The notes below the pieces were generated by a model. The model had not been told where the DNA came from. It was given only the letters and a program-made list of their open reading frames with translations, and ran no database searches. From positions 62,001 to 126,000 of the forward strand of contig JBBPIG010000018.1 of NCBI GenBank assembly GCA_038040445.1: DNA of 64,000 bases, read 5' to 3'. Shown piece by piece: positions 18,433 to 27,793 of this stretch. Position numbers and translations under genes: made by a program. This DNA is from Acidobacteriota bacterium. GTDB taxonomy: Bacteria > Acidobacteriota > Blastocatellia > UBA7656. Every line of letters starts with the position of its first letter. Within the stretch, counting starts at the first letter, position 1.

Positions 18433-21282
18433 TTATTCATATCTCAACGCGACCATCGGATCCACTCGCGCCGCTCGTCGTGCCGGCAGATAGCCGGCGA
18501 TCGCCGCAACGCCAACCATCAACAGAACCGCAAACGAGATAGTCAGCGCATCGGTTGCCGCGAGTCCGAACAGCATGCTCGCAATGAGGCGAGTGGTTGC
18601 CACCGCCGCACCTAATCCGATGACCACGCCGATCAAAACGACCAGCATCGTTTCGCCCATGACCATTCGAGTGACCCGCGGAGCTGAGGCGCCGAGGGCC
18701 ATCCGGATGCCGATCTCATTGGTACGGCGCGCGACCCCGTAAGACATCACGCCGTAGAGTCCAATGCAGGCTAGCAACAACGCAAGCACGCCGAAGAAGC
18801 CCGATAGCGTGGCGAACAGCCGTTCTTGGGTGAGTGAGTCGTCGGCTTGCTGGCTCTGCGTCTTCACGTCGAACAACGGCAGGTTGCTGTCCACCTCGCG
18901 GACGGCATCGCGGATTGCGGCCGTCATCGCGCTTGTGTCTCCGAAGGTGCGCACGATGAACGTCGCGTGCCTCGGGATACTCTGCAGATATGGAAGGTAG
19001 ATGGTCGGCTCGCTTTGACTGCGCATGTCGGTGTATTTCGCGTCCCTGGCGACGCCGATGATTTCGATCTGGCCGCTGGTTTCCGGGCCTCCGAAGCCGA
19101 ATCGCCGTCCCAGCGCGTTCTCATCGCCAAAGTACTTGCGCGCCATCATCTGGTTGATCACCGCTACCCGCGGCGAAGTTTCCTCATCGCGCTCACTCAG
19201 ACCCCGACCCAACAAAATGGGCATCTCGATCGTCTCGAAAAAATGCGCTCCCACAGTATTGACCTTGGCGTCGTTGTTATCGGTGGGCTGCGATGTGTTT
19301 CCCTGCACGTCGATGCTTCTGGTTTGGGCCTGGCCGCTGAGCAGTGGAATGAGTGATACGGAGGCCGAACGCACGCCGGGCACGGCTTCGAGCCTTTCAG
19401 TCATTCGCCGATAGAGCTGTGCCATCTGCGGCCTGTCATAGCCGTTTAAACCTGGCTCAACGCTAAACAGCAGCAGGTTCTCGCGATTGAATCCGATATC
19501 CACATTCTGCAAGTTGCGCAACGTGCGGACGAAGAGTCCCGCGCCGACCAGGAGCACTAAAGACATCGCCACCTGAACAATAATCAAGGATTTAGTGAGA
19601 ATAGACCGGGTACCGCCGGTCACGCTTCTGGCGTTATCCTTCAGCGCCGGTGTCAGATCAACTTTTGTAGCGCGCAACGCCGGTGCGAGTCCGAACAGCA
19701 GACCGGTTGCAAGTGAGACTGCGAACGTAAAGCCAAGCACGCGTAGATCGATTTTGAGATCCACTCCGAGTTCACCACCTCCCCACGGGCGCAAGGTCAA
19801 CAGCATGTCCTTGCCCCAATAAGCGAACAGCGCGCCGGCCGTGCCGCCAAGGATTGCCAGAAGCACACTCTCGGTTAGGAGTTGCCGAACCAGTCGCCAG
19901 CGGCTCGCCCCCAGCGCCAGCCGCACCGCGATCTCTTTCTGCCTCGTGGCGGCTCTAGCCAAGAGCAGGTTGGCGACATTAGCGCATGCTATGAGCAGCA
20001 CAAACCCCACGATCACCATCAAGATCGTCAGCGGCTGCGAGTAGGCGCTGCGCAACTCGGTCATCCCCTGGCTGCCGGAAGCTCCTCGGAGCCTGGGCAC
20101 ATCCCGCGGCGCCGGATTCTGCGCCTGTCCCTGGGGTGGGAAACGGGCAAGCGCCGCGTCCCAACCCTCTTGCGCGCTCTGTTGAAAAATACTTCCGAAG
20201 CTCGCCGCCGCCTGCTCCGTCGTCACCCCGGAGTTCATCCTTCCCATTATCTGGAGCCACCAGAACCAAGGTCCGTTCAGCGAGGATTCGTGCGGGCTCA
20301 CCTGCGGTTGCATCGAAAAAGGAATGGAGAGATCGGGCGACCAGCCGACCTGCGACGCTCCCATAAATTCAGGGGCTGTGATTCCGACGATAGTAAAAGA
20401 CACGTTGTTGATATTGACCGTTTTGCCCACGGCTTCCGGGTCCTGCCCAAACCGGCGCTGCCAGTAGCGATGGGTGATCACTGTAACGGGCGAGGCGCCG
20501 GCCTTGTCATCATCGGGCGCGATCGTCCTGCCCATCGTGGCTCGCACGCCCAACCCAGGATAGTAGCCGCCGGAAACTAGCTGACCCGTGGCGATTTCCG
20601 GCTGGCCATCAACGCTGACGTTCAGTTGATGCAGCGGCGCAAAGGCGAAGACGTCCGAGAGAGTATCGTTGTTATCGCGAAATCGCTCAAAGGTGAGATA
20701 GGAGAAGGATGTGCTCGTTCTCATACCTGTCGCCGGATCTGTTTTGGTACTTCCCATGATCCCGCGCGACAGGCCCCGTTGCCCACCGAGCCAGCTGAAG
20801 AGCACAAGTTCATTCGGCTTCTTGACCGGCAGCATCTTCAGAAGCACGGCGTCGACCAGACTGAACAGGGCGGTGTTCGCGCCGATGCCCAGCGCTAGTG
20901 AAAGCACGGCTATCACGGTGAAGGCTTTGCTTTTGAGCAGCATTCGCAGGCCGTACCGCAGGTCTTGTCCAAGTGATCCCATACCGATTCCTCCCGTTCT
21001 ATGCCGCGATTCAATCCGGGCTTCTGCCGCGAGACGTCTCTTGATCCACGCGTGAGTCACGGGTCGTTTGGCGCGGATCAATTCGCACTCGAGGAGCCGC
21101 CAGTCCTTGATGTGAGCCGTCGCGCGCTGATGAGCCTCTTGCTCCGAAGCGCCGTCAGCCAAAGCGTCTTCGTAGACGGCTTCGAGGTGCTGGGCCATCT
21201 CGTCGACCATTTCCGATTCGCGCTCGGGGCCGAGCTTCAGCGGCGCCAAATTCTTACGAACGTAATCTTTCCAATCAGGCAT
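18433..21282 (-). CDS. ADOP-family FtsX/MacB-type permease
   Basis: 949-residue permease of the ADOP (acidobacterial duplicated orphan permease) family. Residues 1-95 form the soluble prefix domain typical of this group ([15 protein letters not shown] onwards). A first membrane helix lies near 115-140 ([19 protein letters not shown]). A MacB-like periplasmic domain follows to about 370. The first FtsX three-helix unit is near 430-550, with [20 protein letters not shown] second periplasmic domain spans about 600-760. A second FtsX unit runs to the end, closing [12 protein letters not shown]. There is no ATPase in the protein or next to it, hence 'orphan'. It is preceded by a PadR regulator on the same strand with a 38-bp gap, so the two form an operon. 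Its transported substrate is unknown. Confidence 0.94.
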
Positions 21283-21320
21283 GACTTTGCCCTTTGCCCT
21301 TTGCTCTTGCTCTTTGCCCT

Positions 21321-21659
21321 TTAGCCCTCAACCGGGTTCACTCTCGCTACACGATCGAGTGCGGCGAAGAAGTCGGCCCAGGTTTGACGTTGCTCGGTGA
21401 GGACTTTGCGCCCTGCGGACGTGAGCTTGTAATACCGGCGCCGGCGCTGCCCGGCCTTCTCAACCCAGCGGCCATTAATCCACCCGCGAGTTTCCAGGCG
21501 GTAGAGCAACGGATAGAGCGAGGCGACGTGAAACTGAAGTACGCCTTCCGACCTCTGCTCGATGAGCTTGGCGATTTCGTAGCCGTGTCTCGCGCGTTCT
21601 TCGACCAGCGCGAGTATCAGCATCTCTGCGCTGCCTCTTTTGACTTCCTGGTTTAGCAT
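21321..21659 (-). CDS. PadR family transcriptional regulator
   Basis: 112-residue winged-helix regulator. The start [19 protein letters not shown] at 21659 is preferred over the longer frame, because PadR-family proteins begin just before this G-S/T-x-E-x-L-I-L-x-L motif. Further matches are [31 protein letters not shown] and [11 protein letters not shown], the classic wing and recognition-helix elements. It is encoded directly before an ADOP permease, a standard acidobacterial pairing in which PadR is believed to repress the permease. A perfect 21-bp palindrome upstream (21671-21691) is a candidate binding site. Confidence 0.93.
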
Positions 21660-21670
21660 ATGGGATCTCA

Positions 21671-21691
21671 ATATATGGCGTCGCCATATAT
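21671..21691. promoter_or_regulatory. Candidate PadR operator
   Basis: Perfect inverted repeat of 10-bp arms (ATATATGGCG and its reverse complement) around one T, 11 bp upstream of the PadR start. Length, AT-rich ends and position are right for a homodimeric winged-helix repressor acting on its own operon. It is not part of the other palindrome families in the window. Confidence 0.65.
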
Positions 21692-21823
21692 ACTTCGAAT
21701 GTTGGTGCAAAGTCAACAGCCGATGGCAATAACGAGTCCGCTTACAGGAGTGAGAGGGGTACAGTTGAAGAAGCGCGAAGGATCGTTTGGCCTCAGCAGT
21801 TTTGACTCAGGAAGCAGGAACGG

Positions 21824-22223
21824 TTAGGACTTAAGCTGAACAAGGAACTCGTGAGGCGGCGCCAGCAGAATGACCCGGCGGGTCGGATAGGTATAGATTA
21901 CGTCGAAGTTGTTGGTTACATCGCGGCCGAGAATAGAAACGTCGCTGGTTGTTTTATCAGCGAAAACGGCGAACGGTCCTTGAACATTCACTTGTTTTCC
22001 ATCGGCACGGACGAAAGCTAGACGACTCTGGATGAAGAGACAATCAACCTTGCCACCTACGCCGCCTAATTCCGGGGTGTCGTCAGCCGGCAGAGCGAGT
22101 TCAGCAAGCATCGAGTAGGAACATTACCGCCTGCCAGCTTCCCGATGGTGTCTGGACGGCGGCGTCAACTACCGGTCGCAGAACGCCGTCCCTGAAGAGA
22201 TGCCAACGACCGTCAATACGCAT
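21824..22223 (-). pseudogene. Broken clan AA aspartic protease (retropepsin-like)
   Basis: The N-terminal part from ATG 22223 (MRIDGRWHLFRDGVLRPVVD, then WQAVMFLLDA) leads into the active-site strand of a retropepsin-like protease. It meets a stop immediately after FLLDAC. The rest of the fold (MLAELALPADDTPELGGVGG to the end at 21824) continues in another frame. Relatives read FLLD-[TA]-G-A-D-x-T followed by some ten residues before LAEL. The sequence therefore looks as if a few tens of bases, including the catalytic D-x-G-A core, were lost at a short ATGC microhomology. It overlaps the preceding DUF5678-like gene by 11 bp, the same two-gene order as the intact pair at 27021-27793. Confidence 0.72.
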
Positions 22224-22488
22224 AGATGCGCTCGCGCCTCTCGCGCGGGACGAACTGCACAAACGGCTCGTCGTCGGGGTGCTTCTCGGCGGCCAGCCGT
22301 CGTGCCTCCGAGGCTTCGTCGGCGACAAACACCTCGCCATCGGTCACTGCAAGGTACTTACCGGGAAACCGCTCGAAGAGTGCCGCCCCGTGCGCGGTCA
22401 ACCATTCTCCGTTGCGTCGGAACCGCGCCATACGCGCGTTGAATTCCAAGTCCTGTGGCTCTTCAGTTATGATGAGCTTGTGGTTCAC
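22213..22488 (-). CDS. DUF5678-like small protein
   Basis: 91-residue protein. Its core (GEWLTAHGAALFERFPGKYL, then DGEVFVADEASEARRLA and FVQFVPRERRERIYA) has the W-x6-9-Y-x-G-K/Q-[YW]-[VL]-A...DG pattern of DUF5678. This family is of unknown function. It precedes the broken aspartic protease with an 11-bp overlap. It is homologous in pattern to the protein at 27021, which is likewise followed by an aspartic protease. The repeated pairing argues for a functional unit, possibly substrate and protease or regulator and protease; that is inference. Confidence 0.7.
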   Translation of the reverse strand: MNHKLIITEEPQDLEFNARMARFRRNGEWLTAHGAALFERFPGKYLAVTDGEVFVADEASEARRLAAEKHPDDEPFVQFVPRERRERIYAY

Positions 22489-27020: not shown

Positions 27021-27362
27021 ATGTCAGGCAGTACGATCGAAGACATCCTCAGAGAGATCGCCCAATTGCCACAGTCTGAGCAGAACAGGCTTCGACACTT
27101 GCTCGACCAGCGGGAGGATCAAACGGCCTCTCGTGACCGCGCTGTTTCGCTTGCTCCGGTTCCAGACAGCACGCGTGAGCTGCAATGGGTTATTGCTCAC
27201 GCACCCCAGTACGCCGGTCAGTGGGTAGCGCTCGATGGCGATCGCCTAATCGCGCACGGACCAGTTGCCAGTGAGGTCTTTGACGCGGCGGATGCCGACG
27301 GCGCACATCTCCCCTTGATCACTTTCGTTGAGCACCCAGAGAAGGTGTACGCAGGCTTCTGA
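27021..27362 (+). CDS. DUF5678-like protein of a protease module
   Basis: 113-residue protein with a good leader (AAAAAGGAAC). The N-terminal 45 residues are a charged helix (EDILREIAQLPQSEQNRLRH). The C-terminal domain (LQWVIAHAPQYAGQWVALDG, then IAHGPVASEVFDAADADG and EHPEKVYAGF) is DUF5678-like and aligns by eye with the protein at 22213-22488. The next gene, an aspartic protease, starts 2 bp after its stop. The N-terminal helix is not present in the other copy and could be a separate interaction segment. Function unknown. Confidence 0.75.
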   Translation: MSGSTIEDILREIAQLPQSEQNRLRHLLDQREDQTASRDRAVSLAPVPDSTRELQWVIAHAPQYAGQWVALDGDRLIAHGPVASEVFDAADADGAHLPLITFVEHPEKVYAGF

Positions 27363-27364
27363 AG

Positions 27365-27793
27365 ATGCCCACCCAACTCAACTTCGATGAAGAGCTTCGG
27401 TATCCAGATGATCCGTCAGGGATCACCATACCAGTGCTGCTGACTCACGGTGAGAAGTCTCTTCGGGTTACCGCGAAGGTTCTTCGCGTTACCGCGAAGG
27501 TAGACACGGGTGCTCAAGTCTGTCTCTTCGCGCAGGAGGTTGGGTTGAGACTTGGGCTCGAGGTTGAGCAAGGTACGCCGATAGTCCTATCCAGCATCGG
27601 CGGTTCAGTGGATGCGTTTGGTCATGAAGTCTTTCTTCAAGCCGGCAAGCTTGCGTTCGAGAGTCGAGTTTACTTTGCCAAGTACCCGGGCTTGCCCCGC
27701 AATGTGCTGGGGCGTCAAGGTTGGCTGCGGAATCTCAGATTGGCTGTCATTGATTACGATAGCTTGCTCTATCTGAGCGCGTATGACTCGTGA
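27365..27793 (+). CDS. Clan AA (retropepsin-like) aspartic protease
   Basis: 142-residue protein with the single-domain retropepsin pattern: active-site strand VDTGAQVCLF (catalytic D-T-G-A, residues about 47-56), a flap region SSIGGSVDAFGH, and a hydrophobic-hydrophobic-Gly-like end NVLGRQGWLRNL. Such proteins act as homodimers. Just before the active site the seven residues LRVTAKV occur twice in tandem, from a 21-bp duplication (27461-27481 and 27482-27502) that would lengthen the first strand pair. Encoded 2 bp after a DUF5678-like protein. This is the intact version of the broken pair at 21824-22488. Confidence 0.78.
   Translation: MPTQLNFDEELRYPDDPSGITIPVLLTHGEKSLRVTAKVLRVTAKVDTGAQVCLFAQEVGLRLGLEVEQGTPIVLSSIGGSVDAFGHEVFLQAGKLAFESRVYFAKYPGLPRNVLGRQGWLRNLRLAVIDYDSLLYLSAYDS

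Follow-up and report, generated by a model that had tools for sequence, protein, structure and literature searches.

Introduction

Type II toxin-antitoxin systems, among them AF2212/DUF104-PIN, RelB-RelE and Phd-Doc, are small two-gene units in which the regulator comes first and the genes often overlap. A different arrangement, that of ImmR-ImmA and RosmerTA, places the gene of a zinc protease of the COG2856/ImmA family beside that of a small, sometimes DNA-binding, Xre partner. Bacterial retropepsin-like enzymes that act with partner proteins include RimB of the RimABK set, which works on the glutamate tail of RpsF together with RimK and for which the part of the source used here mentions no DUF5678 partner (PMC11957791), and the retropepsin APRc of Rickettsia (PDB 5c9f) is described as having a surface-related role, again with no DUF5678 partner mentioned in the portion of its description that we used. 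Here we analyze a module at positions 21824-22488 of a 64,000-nucleotide stretch of the Acidobacteriota contig JBBPIG010000018.1 (the window, throughout its full length), in which a gene of DUF5678, a family to which no function has yet been assigned, directly precedes a gene for a retropepsin-like aspartic protease. Comparison of many such loci suggests that DUF5678 and the retropepsin probably form one regulated unit in some soil bacteria and archaea.

The module resembles type II toxin-antitoxin systems in its gene order and overlap, in swapped N-terminal heads that on a minority of members belong to toxin-antitoxin families, in the many copies per genome and in the occurrence of decayed copies, but its putative effector is a retropepsin and not a nuclease, Fic or RelE toxin. 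With ImmR-ImmA it shares a protease gene beside a small, sometimes DNA-binding partner, yet the protease is an aspartic and not a zinc enzyme, the partner core is DUF5678 and not Xre, the archaeal partners lack a helix-turn-helix domain, and the two genes are separate, with no natural DUF5678-protease fusion among the loci examined. The preliminary description of this DNA knew of no account of such a pair, and we likewise found none in the open-access papers searched on DUF5678, on retropepsins and clan AA, and on protease toxins, subscription papers and preprints lying outside this scope. The words aspartic, aspartyl and retropepsin are absent from a 2009 survey of toxin-antitoxin systems (PMC2701414), and these and DUF5678 are absent from the 2023 NetFlax paper (PMC10440598). 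The pairing gives DUF5678 a specific, testable partner and also points to a likely regulator for retropepsins of a group that is widespread in prokaryotes.

Results and discussion

Two DUF5678-retropepsin modules of different subtype in the window

The reported copy comprises the following features, all on the reverse strand.

22213..22488 (-): DUF5678 protein, type B, 91 amino acids, GTG start; PF18929 matches over residues 37-83 with 30.3 bits (cut-off 23.2) and an E of 3.8e-7
22101..22223 (-): N-terminal remnant of a type-B retropepsin, ending at a stop just past the catalytic Asp region (FLLDAC, then stop); read from the translation and compared with L077, L066, L069 and L010
22105..22112 (-): deletion junction, about 44 nucleotides gone relative to the paralogue L077, by by-eye sequence comparison
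21824..22111 (-): C-terminal part of the broken type-B protease, in a different frame, with a GGVGG flap and ILGRDVTNN; an open reading frame (ORF)

As the preliminary description had it, a DUF5678-like gene overlaps a retropepsin-like gene by 11 base pairs (bp; 22213-22223). The DUF5678 protein clears the curated cut-off of PF18929, as does that of the second module described below, and was matched again in the whole-genome search (as C18:84240-84380). The broken retropepsin starts with MRIDGRW at 22223(-), from where the frame reads MRIDGRWHLFRDGVLRPVVDAAVQTPSGSWQAVMFLLDAC before it stops at 22101 after FLLDAC; the GGVGG flap and ILGRDVTNNFDVIY follow in the frame 21824-22111(-). Neither remnant taken singly (21824-22111, 22101-22223) reaches a Pfam family, and the identification of this copy as a retropepsin therefore draws on the intact relatives L010, L066, L069 and L207, the last from a congeneric species; a purpose-built retropepsin profile also matches 3' of DUF5678 in this copy (L003 in our set) with an E of 2e-7. 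An active-site deletion at an ATGC microhomology had been proposed. A gap of about 44 nucleotides relative to the same-genome paralogue L077 indeed falls after the catalytic-Asp codon, but the repeat seen there is TGC; a short microhomology of this kind is compatible with the deletion, the mechanism itself being beyond proof. Positions 21824-22223 do not hold D[TS]G and a hydrophobic-hydrophobic-Gly motif in one intact frame, as the frame breaks past the Asp region. This protease copy is a pseudogene, and the module is a decayed example in which the DUF5678 frame is still open. L077, the other type-B copy of the genome, is likewise frameshifted at almost the same place, right after LLDAG, and there a tandem pair of DUF5678 genes lies ahead of the protease (L077:3590-4600).

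A second related module, also noted earlier, has the same gene order on the opposite strand.

27021..27362 (+): DUF5678 protein, type A, 113 amino acids; PF18929, E 6.8e-10, 39.1 bits against 23.2
27365..27793 (+): type-A retropepsin-like protease, 142 amino acids; PF13650 (Asp_protease_2), E 9.4e-6, 26.7 bits against 24.3
27461..27502 (+): seven-codon in-frame tandem duplication (LRVTAKV twice) immediately 5' of the catalytic triplet, seen in the sequence and not in relatives such as L186
27503..27511 (+): catalytic DTG; its Asp (D47 of alignment A2) is invariant across 39 partner proteases, which were gathered mostly through a motif demanding such a site, so that the invariance is partly built in

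The protease gene begins 2 bp 3' of DUF5678 and its frame is open. The earlier picture of two homologous modules holds for their relatedness and gene order, but the two belong to different subtypes and did not arise by recent duplication of one another. Within this genome, damage close to the active site is seen repeatedly, namely in the type-B window copy, in L077 and as the duplication in the type-A window copy; a claim that lesions cluster at the protease active site was dropped, since other broken copies break elsewhere.

DUF5678 and retropepsin genes are paired in bacteria and archaea

The preliminary description had named an outcome that would refute the module, namely that the two genes are unlinked in most genomes; it was looked for from both sides and did not occur. 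The 6.7 Mb host genome of the window has four PF18929 matches. Across 297 genomes drawn from the same phylum, whose named members among the relatives are Acidobacteriota, there were 58 matches, spread over 20 genomes. These correspond to 56 ORFs, two of which carry two matches each, and every locus was read. A retropepsin lies directly 3' on the same strand in 42 of the 56 (L025 being scored as paired by motif) and none does in 14. The 42 partners comprise 37 intact proteases and five broken or fragmentary ones (the window copy L003, L035, L060, L068 and L077), and 38 of 39 aligned partners match PF13650 at an E of 0.05 or better. DUF5678 is also present in the archaeal phylum to which a Woesearchaeota genome with the module belongs, in 31 of 194 genomes with 43 matches, and 30 of these 43 are followed by a retropepsin: 24 by profile and six by motif and reading (L146, L168, L169, L172, L177, L181), with a false motif call (L178) left out and one further locus at a contig edge (L176) kept among the 43.

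In the reverse direction, scanning genome contigs with seven type-A proteases gave 62 relatives, nearly all from Acidobacteriota metagenome-assembled genomes (MAGs; Blastocatellia and Bryobacterales), with one labelled Gammaproteobacteria and one Woesearchaeota. A purpose-built DUF5678 profile found DUF5678 directly 5' in 61 of the 62, and in the one exception the contig edge is only 20 bp ahead of the protease. Within Pseudomonadota, the phylum of the Gammaproteobacteria MAG, DUF5678 was found in that MAG only, one of 398 genomes. The host genome of the window has 21 PF13650 matches, and five of the 20 examined have a DUF5678-like gene 5' (L008, L010, L018, L019, L024); strict linkage to DUF5678 is thus a property of the type-A retropepsin family and not of all retropepsins. 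Some of the DUF5678-free retropepsins of this genome are presumably members of an AF_0612-like family, and two of them (L015 and L020) adjoin gene pairs that by eye resemble DUF2281-PIN and Phd-RelE. At L013:1156-1710, a 90-amino-acid gene before a short retropepsin resembles by eye a diverged DUF5678 (WLFIEV...GKLVATAEE...PAFVG) and has no family match. A further set of 58 relatives was read in part and enters no pairing count.

The paired genes are small, adjacent and on the same strand, with the regulator first, as in type II toxin-antitoxin systems. Might they simply lie side by side in an operon or mobile cassette that they share, with no direct interaction? The sequence distances of DUF5678 and protease are correlated (r 0.72; 98 pairs), more strongly than those of the N-terminal heads of DUF5678, described below, are with either (0.43 and 0.36). 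Such a pattern would be left by a core pair that is kept intact as its heads are swapped, but correlated distances would arise from co-inheritance alone. Mere neighbourhood is nonetheless very improbable given that the pairing spans bacteria, archaea and diverse proteases, that the flanks hold hardly any retropepsins outside that position (in a control of 379 kb around DUF5678 genes, 70 matches fell in the 3' slot and two elsewhere) and that there is no conserved third gene, the largest cluster holding five of 227 flanking genes. Of the two off-slot matches, L025 is actually a paired protease, whereas L159 and its DUF5678 gene are convergent. Gene content in the flanks is mixed: among the 79 flanking ORFs that were scanned from the 227, three encode PIN domains and two transposases.

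Partner proteases are predicted retropepsin-like aspartic enzymes

The model of one relative (L082) has a retropepsin fold, with a Z of 13.9 to APRc as the closest solved structure (118 residues, root-mean-square deviation 2.3) and of 13.1 to the protease of feline immunodeficiency virus, which the sequence profile of the partner proteases also matches (E 1.3e-6). By profile and modelled fold the partners are retropepsin-like aspartic proteases of clan AA, family A2, predicted to be active, and not HEXXH zincins like ImmA (COG2856).

The main alternative to an inhibitory role for DUF5678 is a pair of repressor and protease on the model of ImmR-ImmA. DUF5678 would then be the substrate, cut perhaps near its tail, so that a DNA-binding regulator is released or destroyed and the operon or other genes are switched on. 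Pairs of a zinc protease and an Xre protein with such logic are known, as described in part of PMC2701414, strict co-occurrence suits an enzyme and its substrate equally well, and the HTH_17, AF2212-like and RelB-like heads found on some DUF5678 proteins are DNA-binding types. Archaeal DUF5678, however, keeps the protease without any DNA-binding head, and repressor cleavage therefore cannot be the common core of the system. We consider this alternative unlikely, if worth serious attention.

Exchanged heads on some DUF5678 proteins, and a conserved tail

The DUF5678 domain was modelled as alpha-beta-beta-alpha-beta. Fold searches stayed within the range of chance (best E 2.6 with Foldseek, best Z 3.8 with VIA-align), which is not evidence of a new fold, and the sequence profile gave weak matches only (best 0.018). 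The N-termini of some bacterial members are mutually unrelated domains that exceed Pfam cut-offs: an AF2212-like head in eight proteins (L039, 42.5 bits against 21.6, and seven more including L129), a RelB-like head (L045, 42.4 bits against 27, and L079) and an HTH_17 head in L133 only (45.2 bits against 27), with weaker ribbon-helix-helix-like matches in L049, L078, L112 and L118. According to part of PMC2701414, AF2212/DUF104 is an AbrB-related family of antitoxins that go with PIN toxins. Such heads are in the minority (AF2212-like eight, HTH_17 one, RelB-like five in set A1 and one in set A5, from 52 and 61 scanned proteins in sets that overlap in several loci); known antitoxin or DNA-binding domains occur neither on most bacterial heads nor in archaea, and the heads of the two window proteins match no antitoxin or DNA-binding family in Pfam. 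A common helical N-terminus (LEQIIxxxxxLPxxE), considered as an addiction-module domain, was a by-eye impression with no support in Pfam.

At the other end of the protein, a G and a W near the end of DUF5678 are conserved in at least 90% of 60 aligned domains, and the tail ends as GGW in most bacterial proteins, as a variant of ETMIF in the archaeal ones and as RIYAC or similar in type B. DUF5678 tail and protease subtype thus change together, of which shared descent may be another source. An aromatic residue stands among the last three in 128 of 178 domain rows, a count with no background rate to compare. The tail was modelled with low confidence, and low confidence combined with conservation is as expected for a peptide that would become ordered on a partner.

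One-sided losses and a putative restraining role for DUF5678

Eleven of 53 DUF5678 genes lack a protease, versus none of 61 testable type-A proteases that lack DUF5678 (Fisher p 1.2e-4, a guide only because the two samples were collected differently; the 53 leave out the doubtful matches L042, L043 and L074). The toxin-antitoxin resemblance pointed out in the preliminary description gains support at the sequence level from these one-sided losses and from the swapped antitoxin heads. The losses also bear on the view that DUF5678 does not inhibit the retropepsin but activates it or serves it as a chaperone or adaptor, assisting its folding, its dimerisation or its access to a substrate. A DUF5678 gene strictly paired and placed 5' would suit such a role, and according to the part of PMC11957791 used here, those bacterial A2 peptidases that are known, few in number, depend on further factors, activating or in a cascade. 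But DUF5678 persists without a protease in those 11 genes, and antitoxin-type heads are not expected on a chaperone; we judge the activator view improbable. Two orphan genes have other company: one without a retropepsin overlaps a Fic/Doc gene (57.7 bits) by 4 bp (L073:2944-3683), and one in a same-genus genome is followed by a DUF2281-PIN pair that is VapBC-like (L204:1487-2382).

The analysis shows the pairing, the retropepsin fold and mostly intact active site of the partner, the swapped heads, the conserved tail and losses of the protease only. For strict pairing with the regulator gene in front, swapped heads of antitoxin type, a conserved tail and such losses, the simplest account is antitoxin-like restraint of the protease. 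We tentatively favor the reading that DUF5678 is an antitoxin-like regulator of its co-encoded retropepsin, which would be bound by it and toxic when free, while granting it somewhat less than an even chance. In this dedicated two-gene unit, DUF5678 would be the first product of a message common to both, often overlapping, genes, bind the newly made retropepsin and keep it inactive, with its flexible tail most likely docking in the substrate cleft or at the dimer interface. A fused antitoxin or DNA-binding head would probably allow DUF5678 to repress its own operon, and once DUF5678 is lost or turned over, the protease would be released to cleave proteins of the cell. The more specific proposal, a bacterial and archaeal toxin-antitoxin class in which DUF5678 is the antitoxin core, its C-terminal tail plugs a toxin of the human immunodeficiency virus protease type and its DNA-binding head is freely exchanged, is conceivable though doubtful. 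If the protease is toxic and DUF5678 neutralises it, the protease would be an effector of a kind new to toxin-antitoxin systems, and DUF5678 a natural protein that inhibits retropepsins.

Several observations weigh against antitoxin-like restraint. Most bacterial heads match no antitoxin family in Pfam, even when scanned alone (21 heads), and archaeal DUF5678 proteins are mostly about 60-90 amino acids long, without an added head. The catalytic triplet is D[TS]G in 32 of the 39 aligned partners and deviates in seven (DCG in two, DPG in two, and DTV, DGG and DRG). The patterns used to collect the type-A reverse set came from proteases linked to DUF5678, so that the set is in part selected for DTG. 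A read-through pseudo-complex of L082 (predicted template modelling score 0.58) placed DUF5678 on the protease uninformatively, with no confident docking. Type II toxin-antitoxin systems are frequently, though not universally, carried by plasmids or phages. The DUF5678 module differs in this respect, as tblastn or pattern searches with the type-A protease or DUF5678, at the sensitivities used, came up empty for plasmids, phages and viral contigs, collections that we guess to be poor in Acidobacteriota elements.

Other observations in the window

The type-A protease region (27365-27790) weakly matches the PADLOC candidate PDC-M52B (E 1.4e-5), which places a retropepsin among candidate defence models. 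Positions 18433-21716 encode, by eye, a large permease of the MacB/FtsX type next to a PadR-type regulator, which we take to be a frequent pair in this phylum.
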